A stretch of DNA of 64,000 nucleotides from a virus. The notes beneath the pieces were generated by a model, which worked only from the letters and a program-made list of their open reading frames with translations, was not told the DNA's origin and did not search any database. The stretch spans positions 1 to 64,000 of the IMG/VR virus record IMGVR_UViG_3300027917_001949, one strand, 5' to 3'. Below are positions 2 to 61,820 of the stretch, piece after piece; position 1 is the first letter of the stretch; each line of letters starts with the position of its first letter. The position numbers were made by a program, and so were the translations under genes.

Positions 2-493
2 GGTCTCCCGTGTTCTGGGAAAACTACAATAGCGGATGCGTTAGCGGAGAAACTAAAGGAAAAACGTTCTAAAGTAGAGAGATTGGACGGTGATGTCACT
101 AGAGTACTGTGGAGGGAACTAGGGTTCTCGAAGGGGGATAGGGATGAAAACATTCATAGGGTTGGAGTCTTGTGCGAGATGCTGGTTCGTAACGGGGTCG
201 CAGTTGTCACTGCATTTGTGTCTCCTTACGCAGTGGCTCGAGATTCTGTTCATGAAACCATTGGAGAGTTTGTTGAAGTATATGTCAAATGCCCGCTTGA
301 AATCTGCATTGAACGTGATGTTAAGGGGATGTACAAGAAAGCAATAGCTGGTGAGATAACTAATTTTACCGGTATATCTGACCCGTACGAAGAACCACAG
401 AATCCAGACATTATTGTTAATACTAGTACCACTACAGTTGATGAGTGTGTCGATGAGATATATGCGAAATTGGAGGAGTGCGGGTACTTATGA
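2..493 (+). CDS. cysC: APS kinase (CysC-like), 5' end outside window
   Basis: Adenylylsulfate kinase phosphorylates APS to PAPS, the sulfate donor used by sulfotransferases. The open frame enters from the left edge, so the start lies upstream. The first visible residues form a P-loop, GLPCSGKTT, followed by RLDGDVTR, the substrate-binding stretch typical of CysC. Further on come VEVYVKCPLEICIERD and GISDPYE, which match the conserved CysC C-terminal half; the 163 visible codons are close to a complete C-terminal portion. The stop TGA overlaps the ATG of the sulfotransferase gene (ATGA), so the PAPS maker and the PAPS user are translationally coupled. The family call is strong; use of the PAPS by the neighbouring gene is inference from the coupling. 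Confidence 0.9.
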   Translation, partial: GLPCSGKTTIADALAEKLKEKRSKVERLDGDVTRVLWRELGFSKGDRDENIHRVGVLCEMLVRNGVAVVTAFVSPYAVARDSVHETIGEFVEVYVKCPLEICIERDVKGMYKKAIAGEITNFTGISDPYEEPQNPDIIVNTSTTTVDECVDEIYAKLEECGYL

Positions 494-1170
494 TAGTTAA
501 CCATAAACATAAATTCATATTCATACGTTCTGAAAAAACAGCGAGCACCAGTCTGGAGCGATACTTGCATGACCATTGTAAGTTTTCCAAAGATGACATT
601 ATTACTTTTGTTCCTAGTGGTAAACGTAAAGCGCAGAATATCGGTGGTGGACTGAGCGAGGATGACCCAACAGCGTTCTGGAATCATATGCCAGGGTATA
701 TTATCCGTGATTTGATTCCATATGAGTGGGATAATTATTACAAGTGGTGTGTTGACAGACACCCGTTGGAGAAAACTATATCATCATACTTCCATAAATT
801 AGACTTAAAATGGGTTAAAAATTTTGACGATTACATGAGCGGTTCAAGGTATTTTCCGGCTGCTAGAGCAACTATGGGACATCCTGAGCAAGCGTGTAAT
901 TATCCGAAGTATACTGAACCAACCAATCCAGATATAATTATTGTCGATAGAGTTATTAAATATGAAAACCTAAATCGTGAGTTAGCTGATGTGTTCAAGA
1001 TGTTGGGGATACCGTGGCGTGGTTCGCTTGGGTACACCGATAAAAATAAGTATCGGAAGGATAAACGACCAGCAACCGAAATATTTAAGAAAGACCCGTT
1101 CAACAAACATCTTCCTAAATTGAGGGAAGTTTTCGCACAAGAGTGCAAGTTGCTAGGGTACAAATTCTAG
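490..1170 (+). CDS. Sulfotransferase, Sulfotransfer_2-like
   Basis: Predicted PAPS-dependent sulfotransferase of 226 aa. Near the N-terminus FIRSEKTASTSLE resembles the 5'-phosphosulfate-binding loop of Golgi-type and bacterial sulfotransferases (I-x-K-T-x-x-T-S-L). CVDRHPLEKTISSYF around residue 87 matches the 3'-phosphate-binding motif (R-x-P-x(4)-S-x-Y). The start at 490 is preferred over the in-frame GTG at 478: it overlaps the APS kinase stop and has GGAGG upstream at 472-476. The acceptor cannot be read from sequence. With two GT4 glycosyltransferases in the same structural block, a sulfated glycan on the virion or the host surface is plausible, but that is inference. Confidence 0.8.
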   Translation: MIVNHKHKFIFIRSEKTASTSLERYLHDHCKFSKDDIITFVPSGKRKAQNIGGGLSEDDPTAFWNHMPGYIIRDLIPYEWDNYYKWCVDRHPLEKTISSYFHKLDLKWVKNFDDYMSGSRYFPAARATMGHPEQACNYPKYTEPTNPDIIIVDRVIKYENLNRELADVFKMLGIPWRGSLGYTDKNKYRKDKRPATEIFKKDPFNKHLPKLREVFAQECKLLGYKF

Positions 1171-2965: not shown

Positions 2966-3553
2966 ATGAAGGATACTATATTTAACATAAGTCTTAGTTT
3001 CATAGAAGACGGTGACCTAGCCCAAGCTGGTATACCTGAAGAATACAAGAATCCGTTATTGACATGGGTTAAGCTCATCTTTACTGATGACAAACCTAAT
3101 GCCAACAATCAGGGTATTAGTCAGGAAGAATTCCCGAATCTTTTGAAATCTATGGCTTATATGCCAATAAAAGCCAATTTTGATTCCGAGTTCGGTTTAG
3201 AAGGTCATTCTGATGCACATGTGATAGGGGTGATAAAGGGCGGACAGCAAGAAGGTGATAAAATAGTAGCTGTTGGTGCTCTTTTTCAGGACGAGTATCC
3301 AGATGTTGTCGATTTCTTTAAGAATGAGATGGCTGAAGGAAGCAACGTTGACTTTTCTTGGGAGATTCGTTACAAGGACTCTGAGGAGAAGGACGGAGTT
3401 GAGTGGTTACAGCATGTAACTACAAAAGCTATTACGGCTGTTCAACATCCTGCATACGAAGGCAGAACACCATTAATATCTATTAGTGCACACGATTTGA
3501 TTAAGATAGTGGACGAGGAGTTGAAAGAACGTAAAGCTACTGAGGTGGTGTAA
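2966..3553 (+). CDS. Putative prohead (capsid maturation) protease
   Basis: A 195-aa protein placed two genes before the decoration and capsid genes, where tailed phages usually encode the maturation protease. Visible features are GHSDAHVIGVI around residue 80, which offers a candidate catalytic His, NVDFSWEIRY around residue 128 with a candidate Ser, and AVQHPAYEGRTPLIS near the C-terminus, a stretch I associate with phage head proteins of this position. The start is the ATG preceded by GGAGA at 2956-2960 rather than the upstream GTG codons. Its stop overlaps the next start (TAATG). The protease call rests on synteny and weak motifs; it could also be a scaffold partner. Confidence 0.5.
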   Translation: MKDTIFNISLSFIEDGDLAQAGIPEEYKNPLLTWVKLIFTDDKPNANNQGISQEEFPNLLKSMAYMPIKANFDSEFGLEGHSDAHVIGVIKGGQQEGDKIVAVGALFQDEYPDVVDFFKNEMAEGSNVDFSWEIRYKDSEEKDGVEWLQHVTTKAITAVQHPAYEGRTPLISISAHDLIKIVDEELKERKATEVV

Positions 3554-4500
3554 TGAAAAGACTATTGGATTTAAGCAATGTTCCGACCCCTCAGTTGAAG
3601 GAAATCAGAAAAGTACTTGTTGCTGGTGTTCAAGCAGTGGCAGAAGATACGAACAAACCGGACATGTCTGGAGTTGCTCAACTGTGTCATAAGAGTCCAC
3701 CAAAAGGGTATCCTGATGACAAATCAGAGTATGGTGACCCAGAGTGTTACAGATACCCATTGAACACAAAAGCAAGGTGCTTAACCGCTTGGAGGTATGT
3801 ACACCAAGCCGATAACAAGGAAATCTTGGGTGATAAATTTAAAGGCGTTGAAAGCAAGATAAAAAGCTACGCTAAGAAACACTATGATTTAGACCTTCAG
3901 GTCGGTGAATCAGATAAGTTCAATTGGGAGCAGGCATTTCTAGAGTACTACGATGCCGAAACTATGGGCGAACGTTGCGACTCGGTAGAGCTTGAACCCG
4001 AAGGAGCGACTAACGAAGGAGATGATAATATTATGGAAGATATTGAAAAGAAGGTAGCGTCTCTTGAACAGGAAGTAGAAGACCTTAAGAAAACTAAGGA
4101 CACATTGGAAACCGAGAATGCTTCTCTTAAGGAACAGGCTTCTCAGGTCGAGACTCTCACAACTGAAATAAACGAGATGAAGACTGAACTAGAAGCTCTC
4201 AGGAAGTTCAAGACCGATACCGAAGAAGCTCAGGAAAGAGCAGATAATATAAAGGCTATCAAGAGTAAGTTAGACGAAGCTGGTATTGAAGCAGATGTTG
4301 AAGCTGAAGCTGATTACTGGTTGAGTATGACTGATGATAACCTAGTGAAGACAATCGCAAAATTGAGCGAATTGTCAAAAGGAGCTAAGGCTTCTGCAAG
4401 TATAAAAGTTCCTCCTGTTAAGACCGATGACGAGGACGATGATAATGTATCAATCGTCTCTCAAGCATTGAACGAGCGCAAGCAGGCGAAGAACGATTAA
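3553..4500 (+). CDS. Putative scaffold-type head protein with coiled coil
   Basis: A 315-aa acidic protein. Residues about 35-115 form a compact domain (GVAQLCHKSPPKGYP, YGDPECYRYPLNTKARC, SKIKSYAKKHYDL) that I have seen in phage proteins next to prohead proteases. Residues about 160-240 are strongly heptad-patterned (KKVASLEQEVEDLKKTKDTL), a long coiled coil typical of internal scaffolds. The C-terminus is very acidic, then basic. It overlaps the preceding gene by one base, so translation is coupled. A scaffold or core role immediately before the capsid genes fits, but the domain assignment is by eye. Confidence 0.55.
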   Translation: MKRLLDLSNVPTPQLKEIRKVLVAGVQAVAEDTNKPDMSGVAQLCHKSPPKGYPDDKSEYGDPECYRYPLNTKARCLTAWRYVHQADNKEILGDKFKGVESKIKSYAKKHYDLDLQVGESDKFNWEQAFLEYYDAETMGERCDSVELEPEGATNEGDDNIMEDIEKKVASLEQEVEDLKKTKDTLETENASLKEQASQVETLTTEINEMKTELEALRKFKTDTEEAQERADNIKAIKSKLDEAGIEADVEAEADYWLSMTDDNLVKTIAKLSELSKGAKASASIKVPPVKTDDEDDDNVSIVSQALNERKQAKND

Positions 4501-5179: not shown

Positions 5180-6100
5180 ATGGACGAAACTAAACTAAAG
5201 AAAGCCCTTGCTGAAGTGGCGAAGAATGATAAGAGAGCACTGGCTGAATTGATTGTTGAGTACGTCGGTCCGAAGCATGTTTCTCAGGACATCGTGGGTA
5301 TGTTCCTAAACACTCGTTCACTTAACCCTGGAGATGCTCTTGTAAAGAAAGTACGTAGAGGTATCGAAGTTAGACAGTTAGTTCCTGGTCAGGATACTCT
5401 TGCAAGCCAGATTACAGTGAAAGAAGTTGTAACGCACAACTTGGACACTGCGTACGCAGAGGTTTCCCACAACGAGTGGGAGGTAGAGTCAGGTGAGATT
5501 GGCACTGTTGACGAAATAAGACAGGAAATCATGGCTAAATTGTCAGATTTCTATGTTGTTAAGGTTATGAATGCGTTGTATACATTGGCTACTATCGATG
5601 ACGACACCAACTTCTTCTATGTGACATCCCCAATCACCAGAACCACATTGGAAACCGCTATCGATAATATTGCTGATGTTGCGGGCAACGTCAAAGCTGT
5701 AGTTGGTAGAAGAACCGCTCTTGCTCCTATTACCAAGTTTGCTGGATACAGAGCCGCTGTGGGTGCAACTGAATCAAGTGCATACCTAGTACCTGTTCCT
5801 TCAGCCCTTGAGGAAATTAGGAGAACTGGTTGGTTTGGTGTGTACTACGGTGCAAACTTTATCAGCTTAGAGCAGGTTTATGATAATATGTATGATAGAA
5901 ATGGTCTCATCAGAGACGACTTAATCGTCGTTATCGGTGATAACTGTGGTGAATTTATCACCTACGGTGACTCAAGAGAGGACCAGTGGACTGATATGCA
6001 GACCGCTCCTCCAACATGGCACATCAGAGTCTATCAGCAGTACGGTCTATTGTTCGACCAGATGGAGAACGTAGCTGTTATCAGAACCGACTCACCGTAA
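5180..6100 (+). CDS. Major capsid protein (HK97 fold)
   Basis: Main shell protein, 306 aa. An N-terminal basic/helical arm (residues 1-60) is followed by LNPGDALVKKVRRGIEVRQLVPG, then the long spine-helix region EIRQEIMAKLSDFYVVKVMNAL. The P-domain/A-domain region contains VKAVVGRRTALAPITKF, and the C-terminal beta strands include IVVIGDNCGEFITYGD and YGLLFDQMENVAVIRTDSP, which is typical of HK97-type capsid endings. It stands alone between two strong hairpins, as expected for the most abundant transcript. No cleaved delta domain is obvious, so scaffold function probably comes from the separate gene upstream. No RBS is very strong (AGGTGAAACC). Confidence 0.85.
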   Translation: MDETKLKKALAEVAKNDKRALAELIVEYVGPKHVSQDIVGMFLNTRSLNPGDALVKKVRRGIEVRQLVPGQDTLASQITVKEVVTHNLDTAYAEVSHNEWEVESGEIGTVDEIRQEIMAKLSDFYVVKVMNALYTLATIDDDTNFFYVTSPITRTTLETAIDNIADVAGNVKAVVGRRTALAPITKFAGYRAAVGATESSAYLVPVPSALEEIRRTGWFGVYYGANFISLEQVYDNMYDRNGLIRDDLIVVIGDNCGEFITYGDSREDQWTDMQTAPPTWHIRVYQQYGLLFDQMENVAVIRTDSP

Positions 6101-6805: not shown

Positions 6806-7075
6806 ATGCCTATTGACGGAGTTGAACCTACAAAGGTTAAACCAAGATATGATAGACGAGGTAAATGTAATAGGTGTGGTTGGTGTTGTCAGTACCACAA
6901 TTGTGAGAAGCTAAGGTTTGAAGGAGATTTGGCGGTTTGTTCTATCTATGAAGACAGACCACAAAGGTGTGTAGTCTTTCCTGAAGCACCCCCGATTTTA
7001 ACTGAGAGTTGTGGTTATTATTTCCTTGATACTTGGGAGGACAATCGACCAGTTAAGTACGGGAGAGACTTATAA
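6806..7075 (+). CDS. CxxCxxCC protein (YkgJ-like metal-binding family), copy 1
   Basis: An 89-aa protein with the YkgJ signature: CNRCGWCCQYH at residues about 21-31 (C-x2-C-x2-C-C), then CSIYEDRPQRCVVFP, matching the family's C-x(n)-RP-x2-C-x2-FP. These cysteines are thought to bind Zn or an Fe-S centre; the biochemical role of the family is unclear. Its stop overlaps the ATG of the large beta-rich gene downstream (TAATGG), and a second family member lies at 12926-13387 in the same virion-protein block. A role in modification or folding of virion proteins is conjecture. Confidence 0.75.
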   Translation: MPIDGVEPTKVKPRYDRRGKCNRCGWCCQYHNCEKLRFEGDLAVCSIYEDRPQRCVVFPEAPPILTESCGYYFLDTWEDNRPVKYGRDL

Positions 7076-8637
7076 TGGCTGTTACTGTAACAACAAAGAA
7101 TTATACATACCTAGATGACTGCGAAAGCCTATCACCTTGGTCAGGCTTAGTAGATGCACTTGTTGGTGACTTTTACAAAGAAGGAAGCAACTGCTTAGGC
7201 ATGGAGCTTTGGGGTAGCGGTACTAACGACCATACTTTAACCGGCTCATGGGATTTATCCGGTATTAAGCACTTACATTTGTGGTGGATGACAACAGTTC
7301 TTAACGAGCTTGATACGGATGCAAACGGTGGTTTCCAAATAGGAATGAGCGACGGGTCTAATACAGGTTTCTGGAAAGTATCCGGTTCAACCACGTATCC
7401 TGGAGGTTGGTACAATCCGGTTCTTGACCTATCTCGTGCGGTAGACTCAGGTACTAAACCATCAATGTCAGCCATCACATCAATTATTTTCAGATGGGTT
7501 TTAACCTCTAATGCTAAAAAGGTACAAAGTTGCTGGATAGATAACATTTATTGTGCAGACGGTTTAATAGCATACGGTGATTTGTCCGGTAGTCCGTTTG
7601 CGTTTTCAGATATATTATCAGCAGACCAAAACACAGCGAATGGTTGGGGTATGATACGCCAAATTGGTGGAGTTTACTTTCTGGTTGGCAGTTTAACTTT
7701 TGGTGATGACTCTGGTACTAATGGTTGCGAGTTTGAAGACTCTAGTCAAGTACTAATATTTGAGAACAGACCTGTAAACGTATCAGGATACAGCATCGAC
7801 ATTGTCGGTAATTCTACCGGTGATACCGGTTTTCAACTGGGTGACGTTGCTGGTGGAAGAGGAACTCAAGGATGCGTGGTCAGGGTTCAGGACGTCACAC
7901 AAATACCAAAATTCGAGTTTAATGCTACTGATGTTAATGTGTCTGGTTTCAGAGTGTATGGTACAACGCTATTAGATGCGGCTGGTGTGTCGTTTCCTAC
8001 AGCAAGTGTAACGAGAGAGGTATTAAGCTCAAGCTTTGAGTCTTGCGGAGAGATTTTACCAAGTACTTGTAAGGTTCAGTATTGTAATATAGTTTCAGCT
8101 AATGACCGTGGAATAAGGATAAGTGATGCTGATTTTGATATTACTGATACTACATTTATCAGTTGCCCGAGCGGTGTACACATAAGCATAAGTGGAGCGT
8201 TTGATTTCGATGGTTTGGTGTTTTCAGATTGTGGTTATGATGTTGAAAACTCAACTGCTGGTGTGGTAACGGTTAACAACCTTCCTGGTGGTGCTAATGC
8301 TAGTACGTACATAAACACTGGTGGTGGTAGTACGGTAATACAGACAGGTGTTTATATAACAGTTAATGTTAAAGACGCTGATACAGACCCAATTGAAAAT
8401 GCCCAAGTGGCAGTTTATAAAAGTTCGGACAATACAGAGTTAATGAATGAGGATACGACATCATTAGGAGTGGCACAAGCTACGTATAATTACACCGGTG
8501 ATACAGCGGTATATATCAGAGTTAGGAAATCCTCAACAGGGGCAACAAAATATATTCCTGTATCAACTACTGGTACTATAACAGATACTGGTCTGACAGT
8601 AACAGTTACTCTGTATGAAGATACAACAGCGTTGTAG
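7075..8637 (+). CDS. Large virion protein, beta-helix and Ig-like domains
   Basis: A 520-aa beta-rich protein. Residues about 1-160 look like a jelly-roll/carbohydrate-binding module (DLSGIKHLHLWWMTT). The middle (about 165-420) has regularly spaced short strands, such as VQYCNIVSANDRGIRI and DTTFISCPSGVHISISG, consistent with a right-handed beta-helix. The C-terminal 90 residues (ITVNVKDADTDPIENAQVAVYK) match an Ig-like/CarboxypepD-regulatory repeat. The composition is typical of tail fibres, spikes or head fibres. It is translationally coupled to the CxxCxxCC gene. The exact location on the virion is unknown. Confidence 0.6.
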   Translation: MAVTVTTKNYTYLDDCESLSPWSGLVDALVGDFYKEGSNCLGMELWGSGTNDHTLTGSWDLSGIKHLHLWWMTTVLNELDTDANGGFQIGMSDGSNTGFWKVSGSTTYPGGWYNPVLDLSRAVDSGTKPSMSAITSIIFRWVLTSNAKKVQSCWIDNIYCADGLIAYGDLSGSPFAFSDILSADQNTANGWGMIRQIGGVYFLVGSLTFGDDSGTNGCEFEDSSQVLIFENRPVNVSGYSIDIVGNSTGDTGFQLGDVAGGRGTQGCVVRVQDVTQIPKFEFNATDVNVSGFRVYGTTLLDAAGVSFPTASVTREVLSSSFESCGEILPSTCKVQYCNIVSANDRGIRISDADFDITDTTFISCPSGVHISISGAFDFDGLVFSDCGYDVENSTAGVVTVNNLPGGANASTYINTGGGSTVIQTGVYITVNVKDADTDPIENAQVAVYKSSDNTELMNEDTTSLGVAQATYNYTGDTAVYIRVRKSSTGATKYIPVSTTGTITDTGLTVTVTLYEDTTAL

Positions 8638-12925: not shown

Positions 12926-13387
12926 ATGAAGGTAATTAGAGGGACATGCAACCGGTGCGGGGAGTGTTGTGGTAAGACTACTAATAAACCACCATTCGGA
13001 TGGGGTTTCTTTGAAATAATACTTCAAACTGAAGGTAACACTGACTTTCCGTTCGACGCTTTACCGGAAGAGAAGCGGTATATCTGGAGTTGGGTAAATG
13101 CTGCTCTAGATAATAATAGAAATGTTCGTATCGGGTCACGTAACTATACCTTGATAGTGAGAACTGGTGTTGGGTTAATCAAGGAAGATGGTAATAATGA
13201 GTGTCCATTCCTACTGACTGATGGTAGTTGTGGAATTTGGGACGAAGTAAGCGTTTCTATTTGGCATGATGCTCTTTGTAAAAGTGCGTTCCCGTACAAT
13301 GGATTTGTACTCCCTGATGGTGCAGATAATTACGAACAATTTTTTGTTGACCATCCATCTTGTAGTTACTACATCAATGAGGAGTAA
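12926..13387 (+). CDS. CxxCxxCC protein (YkgJ-like), copy 2
   Basis: A 153-aa protein starting MKVIRGTCNRCGECCGK, the C-x2-C-x2-C-C signature, followed by CPFLLTDGSCGIWD (C-x8-C) and C-terminal cysteines (SCSYY). It is longer than copy 1 at 6806-7075 and diverged from it. The start lies two bases after the previous stop; TAGTTAATT gives little SD. As with copy 1, metal binding by the cysteine cluster is expected from the family, while the role in a virion gene block is unknown. Confidence 0.7.
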   Translation: MKVIRGTCNRCGECCGKTTNKPPFGWGFFEIILQTEGNTDFPFDALPEEKRYIWSWVNAALDNNRNVRIGSRNYTLIVRTGVGLIKEDGNNECPFLLTDGSCGIWDEVSVSIWHDALCKSAFPYNGFVLPDGADNYEQFFVDHPSCSYYINEE

Positions 13388-13389
13388 AA

Positions 13390-15540
13390 ATGACAGCTAC
13401 ATTAATCACTTCAACTAACCAATATTGGTATGGTGTCGGTAACAGAGCAGTATTTGATGTCTCTGGAACTCCTTATGTTGTCTTGCGTAATTACGGTGAC
13501 TATATAAGTGTGTTTAAGAAAACAAATGGTAGCTTTTCTGAGCAAGACTCAAGTAACAGACCATCTGAAACCGGTATGAAGCACATGGATGCGAGACTTG
13601 ATGGAACAACTATCAAGATTGCGTACGGTCTCTATGTTACTGGTGTTAATTGGTTGGTCAGGTATGTAGAATTTGACACATCATCTGACACGTGGGGTTC
13701 TCCTGAGACAGCCGTTAGTCATGCTTATGAGGAATACCCATCTGCAAACTATGATACTTGTCGTCTCGATATAGATAGTTCAGGTTACGCACACATAGCT
13801 TATGGTAGGATTTATACCCACCATGGAACTAATTACCGACATATTTATCATGTTTGGGAAACTAGTGGTGGTTGGCAAACTCCAGAGAGGATAACACCTA
13901 CTGATGCTAATAATTATCAGATAAAGTCAGTTGCGATGGATTCTTCAGACCGTTTTATCACCATTTATGATGATGTTAGCGGGGGAGATTTAGTTCACCG
14001 CTCTCGTAGTTCCGCAGGAACATGGGATACTGAAAACATAGTATCAAGTAATCCGAGTACCAATTCTTATTGTTCTATAGCTTTAGACAGTTCTGATGTA
14101 AGAAAGGTTGCTTTAGAGGACTATTCACATTACTTAGATATACGTTCTGGTACATCTGGAGCTAACCCTACATGGTCTGATGACGGTAGTGACGAGGATA
14201 CGGGTGTCTATTACCCATCAATAGGTATTTACGGTACAAATAGGTATGTAGTTTATGAGGATAGTGTCGCTTCTCCATATGCTATTAGTTTAGCAAAAAG
14301 AGAAAATGGTAGTTACTCTGTAGAGTCAGCAATTGAGCAAGATTCAACGTATGAATTCGCTTACCCAATTATAGAACATCCCGTACGTTCCACAGGGTTT
14401 CATTATATTTGGATTAAATGGACTGATGATGACTGGTACTGGAATGAGTATTCTTTTGCAGGAGGGGTGACACCTCAAGCAGTCGGTGGTGGTACAGTAT
14501 CGATTTCTGGGGACCTATCTAAAGAATTAACATTACATAAATCAGTTGGTGCTGGTAGCGTAACTCCTGCGGGTGATGTCTCGATTCGTCGGCTTCTTAC
14601 TCACATTGGAGTTGGTAGCGGTTCAGTACCCATTACCGGATTATTATCGAAAAAGACGTTTAAAGCAGTTGGTTCTGGGGTTATAAACCCGTTTGGTATC
14701 CTATCAACTACAAAGAAAATTCTGCAATCAGTTGGTGGTGGAACAGTAACTCCTGTAGGAGTATTGTCATTTTGGACGAAGTTTTTCCAGTCCGTAGGTA
14801 ATGGTGTCGTAACATCGTCTGGAACGTTAACTTTCTGGAAGAGAGTATTCCAAGCGGTAGGTGGTGGTACGGTTACTCCAACAGGAACACTCAGCTTATG
14901 GAAGAAGTCGTTCCAATCTGTCGGTAACGGTGTCATCAGTGTTGCTGGTACACTTACATCCTGGAAGAAAGCTTTCCAATCAGTGGGAGAAGGTATTGTT
15001 ACTTCTTCTGGTGAGTTATCAACATCTAAGAAGTCATTTCTTAACGTTGGTTCTGGTGTTGTGTCGATATTGGGTGTTCTTGATAAGCACAGAAAGACTT
15101 CTCTAACTGTTGGTCAAGGTGTCGTATCTATTGTAGGTTCGTTGATTGCAACCCCATCTGTACCACCAACAGGAATATTGAAGCATATTGGTGTCCTTAC
15201 TGACGGAGCATTTCCAAATGTACCTAATTCTGATGTTACCGCTAGGATACCTGTTTTAACGGATGGTGCGTTCTTACCGTTCTTCATCATTGCACCTGAA
15301 CCCGAGATAATCGTCTTTGGTGTAACGGATAAGGGATACACTAAAATATCAGACTTCCCATTCATTATAGCACAAGACTATGAACTAGAAAAACATAGTT
15401 CAAAGAGTACGACTCGTATTACTGATGTTGAACGTGAAATTATCGGTTCGACTGAGAAGAGTGATGTTGATAGTAAAAATGTAGAGAGAATAGTGGACAC
15501 TGATGTTACTGACATTAGTGACACTAACATTGAGGAGTAA
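13390..15540 (+). CDS. Beta-propeller plus tandem-repeat virion protein
   Basis: 716 aa in three parts. Residues about 1-360 are a repetitive beta-propeller-like region (CRLDIDSSGYAHIAYGR, YQIKSVAMDSSDRFITIYDD, CSIALDSSDVRKVALED), with blade-like units carrying D-S-S turns. Residues 365-587 are eleven tandem units of about 21 aa built on V-G-x-G-x-V-x-x-x-G-x-L-S. The C-terminal 125 residues are acidic and may be an assembly tail. The ATG follows GAGGAGTAAAA. Probably an adhesin or fibre; the repeat array may serve as a spacer. Confidence 0.55.
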   Translation: MTATLITSTNQYWYGVGNRAVFDVSGTPYVVLRNYGDYISVFKKTNGSFSEQDSSNRPSETGMKHMDARLDGTTIKIAYGLYVTGVNWLVRYVEFDTSSDTWGSPETAVSHAYEEYPSANYDTCRLDIDSSGYAHIAYGRIYTHHGTNYRHIYHVWETSGGWQTPERITPTDANNYQIKSVAMDSSDRFITIYDDVSGGDLVHRSRSSAGTWDTENIVSSNPSTNSYCSIALDSSDVRKVALEDYSHYLDIRSGTSGANPTWSDDGSDEDTGVYYPSIGIYGTNRYVVYEDSVASPYAISLAKRENGSYSVESAIEQDSTYEFAYPIIEHPVRSTGFHYIWIKWTDDDWYWNEYSFAGGVTPQAVGGGTVSISGDLSKELTLHKSVGAGSVTPAGDVSIRRLLTHIGVGSGSVPITGLLSKKTFKAVGSGVINPFGILSTTKKILQSVGGGTVTPVGVLSFWTKFFQSVGNGVVTSSGTLTFWKRVFQAVGGGTVTPTGTLSLWKKSFQSVGNGVISVAGTLTSWKKAFQSVGEGIVTSSGELSTSKKSFLNVGSGVVSILGVLDKHRKTSLTVGQGVVSIVGSLIATPSVPPTGILKHIGVLTDGAFPNVPNSDVTARIPVLTDGAFLPFFIIAPEPEIIVFGVTDKGYTKISDFPFIIAQDYELEKHSSKSTTRITDVEREIIGSTEKSDVDSKNVERIVDTDVTDISDTNIEE
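14482..15150 (+). repeat. Eleven coding repeats of ~63 bp (about 21 aa)
   Basis: Units such as VGGGTVTPTGTLSLWKKSFQS and VGNGVVTSSGTLTFWKRVFQA recur head to tail. Middle units keep a 21-residue length and the phrase W-K-K-x-F-Q-S; the first, third and last units vary in length. Two flavours alternate in the middle (GGGTVTP and GNGV[VI]), suggesting duplication of a two-unit block. Confidence 0.85.
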
Positions 15541-17255: not shown

Positions 17256-18554
17256 ATGGAAGGAAATAGAGTAAAATTACTGTGGATTGGTGATTCACCA
17301 GCAGTAACTACAGGGTTCGGACGAGTTTCACAAGGAGTCTTGGAGGGGTTGTACCAGACTGGTAAGTACAGTGTCTCCGTATTAGGTATTAATCATCCGG
17401 TTGGAGACCCACATCGGTATGAGGGAATGTTCAGGATATATCCTGCAAGAACAGGTGGCAACGTGTATGGGTTTGACAGAGTTAGTGAGGTAATAAGTAA
17501 AGAGCAACCAGACATTGTTTTCATTAACAACGACCTGTGGATTGTAAGTCAATATCTACGAAGTATTCCAGAAAAGAGTCGCATCATGATATATTCACCT
17601 ATTGATGCACTACCGGTTCAAAAAGATTGGATAGCTGTTATTGAGAAAGTAAATGCACGATTGGTCACCTATACCAACTTTGCTAGAGACGGTATCCAAG
17701 AAGCAATGAAAATTCCGGTGGATATTGTTGGTCACGGTGTTGACACCGATGAATTTTATCCCGTAGATGACGCTCGAAAGATACTTGCTAACATACCAGA
17801 AGACGTATTTGTGGTTCAAAACGTAAACCGTAATCAACCGAGAAAACGTCTTGACCTGTTCTTAAAAGCAATTAAGTTATGGGTAGATAGGTTACCTGCG
17901 AGTGACAAGAAGAACGTTCGTTTCTACTATCATGGTACATTAAGAGACTTAGGATGGAACTTAACGTCATTGGCACAGAGGTGGGGTATTGATGACAAGT
18001 TCTTGATAACTGACCAGACTAACATGACCCCCGCTGCCGGTGTACCGTTGGCGATGTTGTGTCAGATATATAATGTTGCTGACGTCCATGTTATGACATC
18101 GATGGGGGAAGGGTTTGGATTGAGTCCGTTCGAAAGTGGTGCGTGTGGAGTTGCACAAGTATTACCAAACCATTCAGCTTGTAAAGAGTTATGGGAAGGT
18201 AGAGCACCATTAATTGATATTGCTGATTGGGAAGTATTGACGGGTGGTATTAATACGGAAGGTGGAATTATCGATATTGACCATTTAGCTACTATTTTGG
18301 AGGACTTGTACTACCACAGGGATAAGGTCAAGGAATATGGTAGGTTAGCGTATGAGTACACCCAACGTGAAGAATTTACGTGGTCGTATGTATCTAACCA
18401 GTTTGATAAGATGATTATGGAAATGTTAAATACCGAAGATTCATTATCAAAACCTATTGATACTCCAAAAATGGTTGAAGCACCTGTTAAGGCAGATACA
18501 ACGACAGCGGCAGGTGATGGTGTAAAAGATGACGATAAACTTTCCGTCAACTAA
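17256..18554 (+). CDS. GT4-family glycosyltransferase (copy 2)
   Basis: 432-aa GT-B enzyme. KLLWIGDSPAVTTGFGRVSQ forms the N-terminal acceptor loop, RKRLDLFLKAIKLW the start of the C-terminal Rossmann half, and GEGFGLSPFESGAC around residue 283 the E-x7-E donor motif. The C-terminal 40 residues are low-complexity (Thr/Ala/Val/Asp) and overlap the next gene. A strong RBS (AAAGGAGAGG) precedes the ATG. It shares motifs with the gene at 1712-2839, so the phage encodes at least two related transferases inside its structural region. Virion or host-surface glycosylation is the likely role. Confidence 0.85.
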   Translation: MEGNRVKLLWIGDSPAVTTGFGRVSQGVLEGLYQTGKYSVSVLGINHPVGDPHRYEGMFRIYPARTGGNVYGFDRVSEVISKEQPDIVFINNDLWIVSQYLRSIPEKSRIMIYSPIDALPVQKDWIAVIEKVNARLVTYTNFARDGIQEAMKIPVDIVGHGVDTDEFYPVDDARKILANIPEDVFVVQNVNRNQPRKRLDLFLKAIKLWVDRLPASDKKNVRFYYHGTLRDLGWNLTSLAQRWGIDDKFLITDQTNMTPAAGVPLAMLCQIYNVADVHVMTSMGEGFGLSPFESGACGVAQVLPNHSACKELWEGRAPLIDIADWEVLTGGINTEGGIIDIDHLATILEDLYYHRDKVKEYGRLAYEYTQREEFTWSYVSNQFDKMIMEMLNTEDSLSKPIDTPKMVEAPVKADTTTAAGDGVKDDDKLSVN

Positions 18555-46922: not shown

Positions 46923-47319
46923 ACCAGATACTGAGTTCAGTGAAGTAAAGGATAGTGGAAAACGTCAGGAGTTTAACACTGGTAGTAAGAGAGATACCAG
47001 AGAAGGAAAGGGACGCTATGACCTCATACCAGCGTATGCTCTGTCACGGCTTGCGAAGCACTATGAGAACGGTGCGGATAAGTACGGTGATAGGAACTGG
47101 GAGAAGGGTCAACCACTATCGAGATACCTTGATTCAATGATTCGCCATGGTTTCAAGTTTCTTGGTGGTAGCAGGGATGAAGACCACCTAGCGGCAGTTG
47201 CGTGGAATGCACTTGCTTTTATGGAAACCGAGTACAGGATTAATCAAGGCATACTACCGAAGGAACTGGATGATATAGAACCAGTGAGGCAGATATTGGA
47301 TGGACAAACACAAGAATAA
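46915..47319 (+). CDS. dATP/dGTP diphosphohydrolase (DUF5664 family)
   Basis: 134 aa. GKGRYDLIPAYALSRLAKHY, GADKYGDRNWEKGQPLSRYL, MIRHGFKFLGGS and DEDHLAAVAWNALAFMETE are hallmark stretches of this MazG-like family, with E/D metal ligands in the helices. Members hydrolyse purine dNTPs; the MazZ enzyme in 2-aminoadenine (Z) phages is related. An HD phosphohydrolase at 54401 and the family A polymerase next door are also parts of known Z systems, but no purZ gene is seen here, so the role is left open. Confidence 0.8.
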   Translation: MAKPDTEFSEVKDSGKRQEFNTGSKRDTREGKGRYDLIPAYALSRLAKHYENGADKYGDRNWEKGQPLSRYLDSMIRHGFKFLGGSRDEDHLAAVAWNALAFMETEYRINQGILPKELDDIEPVRQILDGQTQE

Positions 47320-47689
47320 AGCATTAGAGGATGATTGTCTCTGTACACAATGTAAGTATAGATTTCAATGTTTTACACAGGAACGAGTGTTTTCTGACCC
47401 ACTCTATCAAGGTTTATTTGAAGCGTTAATGGCTAAGGGTAGGTCACGTGAAGAAGCTATTGAAGAGGTTGCCAACGAGTTAAAACTAAGTATTGGTGGA
47501 GGTTTTAAGTTTACCGGTGACATTGTTGTTGGTGAAACATCATATCCATGGAAGTACTACTATCCAGAGTCAGGTAACACTTTTTCAGTCGATGGAGACC
47601 AAATCACGTACACAATGAGTACAGGAGAGGAAGTTAGCTGGTATGCAGGTACAGACGGAATTGGGGACATACGAATACATTTACAGTGA
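47300..47689 (+). CDS. Cys-motif protein with beta domain
   Basis: 129 aa, overlapping both neighbours (20 and 47 bases). CTQCKYRFQCFTQ near residue 15 is the C-x2-C-x5-C-F-T motif shared with small genes at 55-64 kb. It is followed by a helical segment (MAKGRSREEAIEEVANELKL) and a C-terminal beta part (YPWKYYYPESGNTF). The cysteines probably bind Zn or an Fe-S cluster. This is the only copy found outside the tRNA region. Confidence 0.6.
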   Translation: MDKHKNKALEDDCLCTQCKYRFQCFTQERVFSDPLYQGLFEALMAKGRSREEAIEEVANELKLSIGGGFKFTGDIVVGETSYPWKYYYPESGNTFSVDGDQITYTMSTGEEVSWYAGTDGIGDIRIHLQ

Positions 47690-61367: not shown

Positions 61368-61820
61368 ATGTATAATGTAGGTGATGTTGTATATACGACT
61401 CATGATTTAAGGTCTGGAGTGAAAGAGTTTACTCCTGGCATTATCATCGATAGGTATAAGAATACGATTGACGTAGCCTTTCATGAGTGTGTCGTATCTT
61501 ACTGTATCGCCGGTAACTTTAAGAAATGTGATAAAGATTGTACTAATTGTCCAGCTAGGTTTAAATGCTTTACTAGAGATTTAGACAGAGTACCACATCC
61601 AAGTATGGTCACATACATTAAATTAGTCGCAAGGTATCACAGCGCATGTTCGAAATGTGGTAAGCATCTCACAACTGGAAAAGAGATTTGGTGGTCTCCT
61701 GTGGTTAAGGGAGTATACTGTATGGATTGCGGTGTCCCTGAATTCGGTTTGAGAGACCTTGAGGAGATACCTGATTCTGAACAAGTTGATTATTCGAAAG
61801 CGTATCGGGTTAAAAAATAA
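61368..61820 (+). CDS. Cys-motif protein after tRNA-Val
   Basis: 150 aa; ATG two bases after the tRNA CCA, no SD. The N-terminus is a small beta-barrel-like part (YNVGDVVYTTHDL, GIIIDRYKNTIDVAFHE). KKCDKDCTNCPARFKCFTRD near residue 53 carries the recurrent motif with an extra cysteine upstream. A second zinc site follows (CSKCGKHLTTGKEIWW, YCMDCG). It ends before the structured RNA region. Confidence 0.7.
   Translation: MYNVGDVVYTTHDLRSGVKEFTPGIIIDRYKNTIDVAFHECVVSYCIAGNFKKCDKDCTNCPARFKCFTRDLDRVPHPSMVTYIKLVARYHSACSKCGKHLTTGKEIWWSPVVKGVYCMDCGVPEFGLRDLEEIPDSEQVDYSKAYRVKK

Follow-up and report, generated by a model that had tools for sequence, protein, structure and literature searches.

Organisation of the locus

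The window, by which is meant the whole 64,000-nucleotide stretch analysed, corresponds to bases 1–64000 of a 152,753-bp (152.7-kb) virus contig (G000). The DNA is that of a tailed phage and starts within its head operon, with the end of a kinase gene followed by a candidate sulfotransferase gene, a conserved border gene, a glycosyltransferase gene and head genes. The features discussed are the following.

2–493, + strand: APS kinase domain, the C-terminal part of a 281-aa NTase–APS kinase (PF01583, 173 bits; contig overlap; L009)
2–28, + strand: P-loop GLPCSGKTT of the APS kinase (sequence; P-loop G, G, K and T invariant in the alignment)
490–1170, + strand: predicted PAPS-dependent sulfotransferase, 226 aa, with an ATGA start/stop overlap with the kinase gene (PF03567, HMM, AF2 fold)
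526–555, + strand: putative 5'-phosphosulfate-binding loop RSEKTASTSL (aa 13–22), aligning with the KxxGxS loop of other viral sulfotransferases
757–783, + strand: putative 3'-phosphate-binding motif RHPLEKTIS (aa 90–98) (alignment)
1202–1702, + strand: orf1202, conserved right border of a variable island (44–64% identical orthologue in L285, L286 and L334–L338)
1712–2839, + strand: GT4 glycosyltransferase GT4a, conserved beside the island (PF00534, 49.7 bits; PHROG 2170, E 2e-36; 49–62% identical in relatives)
2966–3553, + strand: head-module gene in the position of a prohead protease (66–77% identical in relatives; function by position alone)
3553–4500, + strand: scaffold-like coiled-coil protein (coiled-coil-type matches; kept in relatives)
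5180–6100, + strand: presumed major capsid protein (77–87% identical in relatives; PHROG 16565, no function named)
17256–18554, + strand: second GT4 glycosyltransferase GT4b (PHROG 2170, E 1e-41; 69% identical in L335)

Five glycan-type genes lie upstream of the kinase–sulfotransferase pair, beyond the window's start. They follow the terminase (contig 144425–146017) and portal (146002–147528; PHROG portal) genes, upstream contig positions being 140000 plus the L003 coordinate, and encode a CDP-glycerol-transferase-like glycosyltransferase (PF04464), a methyltransferase, an NTP_transf_3–GNAT fusion, a class-III aminotransferase and a second methyltransferase; the NTase–APS kinase and then the sulfotransferase come next. 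On the 3' side, orf1202 and GT4a lead into head genes as far as the presumed major capsid protein, to which a head-module protein of Bacillus phage Slash is homologous. An earlier reading of the sequence alone had placed the pair just upstream of capsid genes with GT4 glycosyltransferases nearby; head genes indeed stand on both sides of the block, and the two GT4 genes were found.

Other features of the lineage were observed in passing. A large presumed structural protein, possibly tail-associated, is encoded at 13390–15540, with tandem ~30-aa repeats (VGGGTVTPTGTLSxWKK-like) in its middle part. The Cys motif CxxCxxRFxCFT is common to many different small proteins, e.g. CTQCKYRFQCFTQE and CTNCPARFKCFTRD, with sites at window 47300–47689 and 61368–61820, at contig 66158, 88694, 95280, 113304 and 122080, and in L274 and L277. 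Four adjacent reverse-strand proteins (contig 84997, 85648, 88149 and 88694; L006) have MKIRxGFVSNSSSSSF-like N-termini. Small proteins of a CxxCxxCC type are dispersed (window 6806–7075 and 12926–13387; contig 77280 and 127878); two of them lie amid structural genes, and the product of 6806–7075 matches PF03692 weakly.

A kinase gene interrupted by the contig end

The final 193 bases of the contig repeat the first 193 with two mismatches, as seen by sequence comparison; this makes the molecule circular or circularly permuted and puts base 1 within a gene. Since the window opens at contig base 1, the APS kinase frame at base 2 is truncated by the contig end. The remainder of the gene is found at contig 152208–152753, and a near-identical contig (IMGVR 3300001687_000745; L009) is unbroken through the join and carries the whole gene at 7647–8492. 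The full product has 281 residues, comprising an NTase (aa 1–105) and an APS kinase (aa ~111–281). ATGA junctions flank the gene on both sides, one overlapping the preceding methyltransferase gene and the other, at 490–493, the sulfotransferase gene; the latter had been pointed out before. An alignment-free AF2 model of the 281-aa fusion reached a pLDDT of only 39.5 and was left out of the evidence.

The family assignment of the kinase, made earlier from the letters alone, stands (PF01583, E 4e-51, 173 bits against a cut-off of 21.1; TIGR00455, 202 against 138.7), as does the P-loop GLPCSGKTT at the first residues of the frame; what had to be corrected is that base 2 is not the start of the gene. 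The APS kinase motifs are invariant in the alignment, the domain is ~43–52% identical to other APS kinases, and its nearest solved structure is the APS kinase 5cb6. Phosphorylation of APS to PAPS by the fused kinase is thus well supported as a prediction from homology.

The sulfotransferase

The product of 490–1170 had been proposed to be a PAPS-type sulfotransferase, and both checks named with that proposal, on family match and on predicted fold, bear it out. It matches PF03567 above the cut-off and over the whole length (E 1.1e-7, 32.6 bits, cut-off 22, profile positions 3–252 of 252), and an HMM made from 16 other viral sulfotransferases, from which it was left out, gives it 60.6 bits. An AF2 model (input alignment of 25 sequences) has a pLDDT of 76 and a pTM of 0.78, and its fold is that of a sulfotransferase: the top 50 PDB structure matches are all sulfotransferases, headed by heparan sulfate N-sulfotransferase and SULTs, at TM ~0.5 and with no E below 0.001. 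R90 and S98 are invariant among the 25 aligned sulfotransferases; they line up with the Arg and Ser through which sulfotransferases bind the 3'-phosphate of PAPS. From profile and model together, the protein is predicted to be a genuine sulfotransferase.

Single-sequence searches were less informative. With phmmer against the PDB there was a chance match only, tblastn found no match in 50,697 phage records, and a single-protein search of IMG/VR returned the same strain only. The best PDB match of the family profile is heparan sulfate 2-O-sulfotransferase, which makes a carbohydrate acceptor plausible.

The N-terminal NTase

The first 105 residues belong to the HIGH superfamily (PF01467, 33.6 bits against 21; TIGR00125, 34.4 against 27.7). 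The motifs are FIGRWSPFHDGH, YGRGVGW and ISATSIR, and both the HxGH and the ISxTxxR patterns are present. The nearest sequence kin are NMN adenylyltransferases, enzymes that use ATP as AMP donor; the resemblance is confined to the first ~60–70 residues, and scores stay below the cut-offs of that family (TIGR01527, 40.1 against 181; PRK01153, 44.6 against 127 bits). The NTase–APS kinase protein has no match to Sat-type ATP sulfurylase (PF01747). As the domain falls outside both families, its acceptor is a prediction.

In viruses, this NTase and APS kinase go together. Two sets of loci were compared, both including near-copies. Among the top 80 viral NTase loci, 76 have an APS kinase or APSK-like kinase, separate or fused and in both domain orders; among the top 80 viral APS kinase loci, 52 have the NTase within the stretch (15 fused) and 28 have none there. 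The NTases closest to that of this phage (L097–L105; ~50–60% identical) mostly adjoin a shortened APSK-like protein of ~107–111 aa, which is without the C-terminal part of APS kinase. At two loci (L112:4986–5660 and L115:4989–5657) the compact NTase is joined to another C-terminal domain (~110 aa, MazG-like by eye), with no kinase.

Cellular genomes were scanned with a 7-row NTase alignment, a 15-row version being too diverse. Most full-length matches of the compact NTase are NTase–kinase fusions; the carriers belong to Omnitrophota, Planctomycetota, CPR groups, Acidobacteriota, Chlamydiota and Alphaproteobacteria. On a quick tree of 99 APS kinase domains, the NTase/kinase arrangement has to change several times. 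No description of such a fusion was found in the open-access literature searched, where absence is not proof of novelty.

The distribution of known ATP sulfurylases was compared with that of the NTase. A Sat-type enzyme scored above the cut-off in none of 50 APS kinase-bearing viral contigs, in a search confined to the Sat type. A Sat or CysD-like protein is found in 12 of 31 cellular NTase genomes and in 37 of 40 control Omnitrophota with unfused APS kinase (Fisher 1e-6); within Omnitrophota the corresponding fractions are 4/9 and 37/40 (p 0.003). Controls are few in both comparisons, and absence can be mimicked by incompleteness of the MAGs, a minority of which had their completeness shown. 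Several NTase genomes also carry CysD or Sat. From these patterns we infer that the NTase may make APS, i.e. that it stands in for ATP sulfurylase.

An exchangeable island

Relatives of the phage were found by terminase (75–83% identical) or ribonucleotide reductase, and their sequence was followed through, or at least into, the stretch after the portal. Between the portal and the orf1202–GT4–capsid genes they carry an island whose sugar-type genes vary. The order portal–island–orf1202–GT4a is kept wherever both borders could be read (L285, L286, L334–L338), and head genes come after GT4a wherever reading continues. The contents differ: L285 carries a dTDP-sugar set and GT2s, and L286 a GDP-mannose dehydratase, NUDIX, DegT and methyltransferases. 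Other sugar-type sets, judged from sequence starts and partly cut by contig ends, occur in L277, L278, L279, L280, L333, L334, L337 and L338.

Three relatives (L335, L336 and L339) carry the glycosyltransferase, first methyltransferase, NTP_transf_3–GNAT and aminotransferase genes of the present phage at 52–80% identity, and two of the three also the second methyltransferase; no NTase, APS kinase or sulfotransferase was seen in them. The pair's place is taken in L335 and L339 by another methyltransferase-like gene, at which the L339 contig stops. Sharing of the upstream glycan genes without the pair marks the latter as a discrete two-gene add-on. By homology and context, then, the predicted kinase and sulfotransferase form a coupled set within the head operon's variable glycan island.

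Sulfotransferases beside APS kinases

Sulfotransferases of the PF03567 family occur in 14 of the 50 APS kinase-bearing viral contigs and in none of 44 control contigs of similar total length. In 13 of the 14 the kinase lies no more than 2.6 kb away, where chance would give 1.2. The controls were partly relatives of the window phage and partly large contigs from a ribonucleotide reductase search, used because a DNA polymerase query yielded none. For PF00685 the figure is 15 of the 50, with six of these under the family cut-off, and the union of both families covers 23. A coupled transferase together with glycosyltransferases had tentatively been thought a new combination; it is not unique to this phage. 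Cellular NTase–APS kinase genes likewise adjoin PF00685, PF13469 or PF03567 sulfotransferases (L197, L199, L202, L203, L206, L208 and L214), two of the seven scoring below the cut-off.

A published account places viral cysC among the auxiliary metabolic genes of sulfate reduction (PMC9529941). Judged by their gene content, the neighbourhoods of viral APS kinases appear to fit sulfation better.

Proposed pathway and its alternatives

The reading favoured here, with moderate confidence, is that a two-gene sulfation cassette has been added to a variable glycan-biosynthesis island. The NMNAT-like NTase would join ATP and sulfate to give APS, replacing ATP sulfurylase; the fused APS kinase would turn APS into PAPS; and the coupled sulfotransferase would transfer the sulfate of PAPS to an acceptor. 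The second and third steps are well supported by homology, and sulfation as the function of the pair is likewise a well-supported prediction. The acceptor would be a glycan or amino-sugar polymer made by the upstream genes and the conserved GT4 enzymes, and the virion is a plausible target. The sequence-only reading had suggested a self-contained sulfation pathway; the PAPS-making and PAPS-using pair within a glycan block holds on families, fold, coupling and neighbourhood statistics, while the wider combination has counterparts elsewhere. Wider, and more tentative in that we hold it at somewhat short of even confidence, is the proposal that the ~105-aa NTase represents a third kind of ATP sulfurylase, which with APS kinase would form a compact PAPS synthase spread through viruses and several bacterial phyla, powering sulfation that includes that of a modular virion glycan.

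Under one alternative the NTase is no ATP sulfurylase: the phage would use host APS, with the NTase making another conjugate (an NDP-sugar or NAD) or an APS-like substrate for the kinase. The NMNAT-like motifs would suit such a role. C. jejuni has a CysC homologue in Cj1415. An analogous case is its phosphoramidate pathway, in which Cj1415–Cj1418 lead to CDP-phosphoramidate 3'-phosphate (PMC11800397); in phages, NDP-sugar synthesis is a role already given to HIGH-superfamily NTases (PMC7824862). We consider this rather unlikely, given that sulfotransferases cluster with the NTase–kinase pair, that the kinase domain is as close to other APS kinases as stated above, that fusions exist in both orders and that Sat and CysD are missing from many cellular carriers. 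A role of the kinase in assimilatory sulfate reduction, for cysteine supply, would follow the reports on viral cysC cited above; it is very improbable and is rejected here, since no PAPS reductase is found among the genes of the block and the kinase has a coupled sulfotransferase amid the genes of a glycan island, sulfotransferases also being enriched beside viral APS kinases.

Even if sulfation of a glycan is accepted, the phage could be editing the surface glycans of its host, for example in superinfection block or protection of the infected cell. Variable phage sugar clusters have been interpreted as host-surface modification (PMC7824862), the Glyphos_transf-type glycosyltransferase suggests teichoic-acid-like or capsule chemistry, and OQ572406, apparently a Pseudomonas chromosome, groups a sulfotransferase-like gene with those for an APS kinase and a glycosyltransferase. 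Against this, the island is co-directional and translationally coupled between portal and capsid genes, a position that favours decoration of the virion over that of the host surface, and the adjoining GT4 gene is conserved along with the head genes. Inspection by eye of the remaining contig showed no integrase, hence no sign of lysogenic conversion. A host-envelope target therefore seems unlikely, and the sulfation cassette with a virion glycan as its target remains the preferred hypothesis. Modification of DNA was considered as a further possible target of the glycan. As to the record just mentioned, OQ572406.1 (L011) is labelled 'Pseudomonas phage Y4' and unverified; it resembles a bacterial chromosome and is likely mislabelled, and its APS kinase, Sulfotransfer_3-like and GT4-like genes adjoin one another.

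The small adenylyltransferase may be a missing ATP sulfurylase. Viral cysC is usually filed under sulfate reduction, and the neighbourhoods indicate that many of these genes may serve sulfation. Comparison of the islands shows a fixed slot between portal and capsid genes at which entire glycan pathways are exchanged among relatives, much as at a capsule locus but in a virus, sulfation being an add-on there.

Comparison with known systems

Viral sulfotransferases known from PHROG 3347, Ralstonia phage RSL1 and cyanophages have the fold and PAPS loops in common with the present protein, which is only weakly similar to them in sequence. The phage 'kinase' of PHROG 10255 (Stenotrophomonas phage DLP_6, Clavibacter phage 33) combines the same type of NTase with an APSK-like P-loop kinase; it differs in that the kinase, shorter and diverged, comes first and the NTase last, and no sulfotransferase is annotated alongside within the stretches read.

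Phage-encoded sugar enzymes that vary among relatives are familiar from mycobacteriophages, whose capsid and tail glycans exemplify virion glycosylation (Freeman 2023, cited in PMC12619734), and from the sugar clusters of cyanophages (PMC7824862). The window phage differs in having a fixed, exchangeable portal–capsid slot with a sulfation add-on. Bacterial clusters for sulfated polysaccharides or Nod factors (NodPQ/NodH) likewise bring together APS kinase, sulfotransferase and glycosyltransferases; unlike the phage locus, they are cellular and use a CysDN-type ATP sulfurylase. Bifunctional PAPS synthases (animal PAPSS; bacterial Sat–APS kinase, 2gks and 3cr8) also unite an adenylyltransferase and APS kinase in one polypeptide, and the overall reaction expected of the predicted fusion, from sulfate to PAPS, would be the same; the predicted adenylyltransferase of this phage is of a ~105-aa NMNAT-like rather than a Sat type, and its family has both domain orders.
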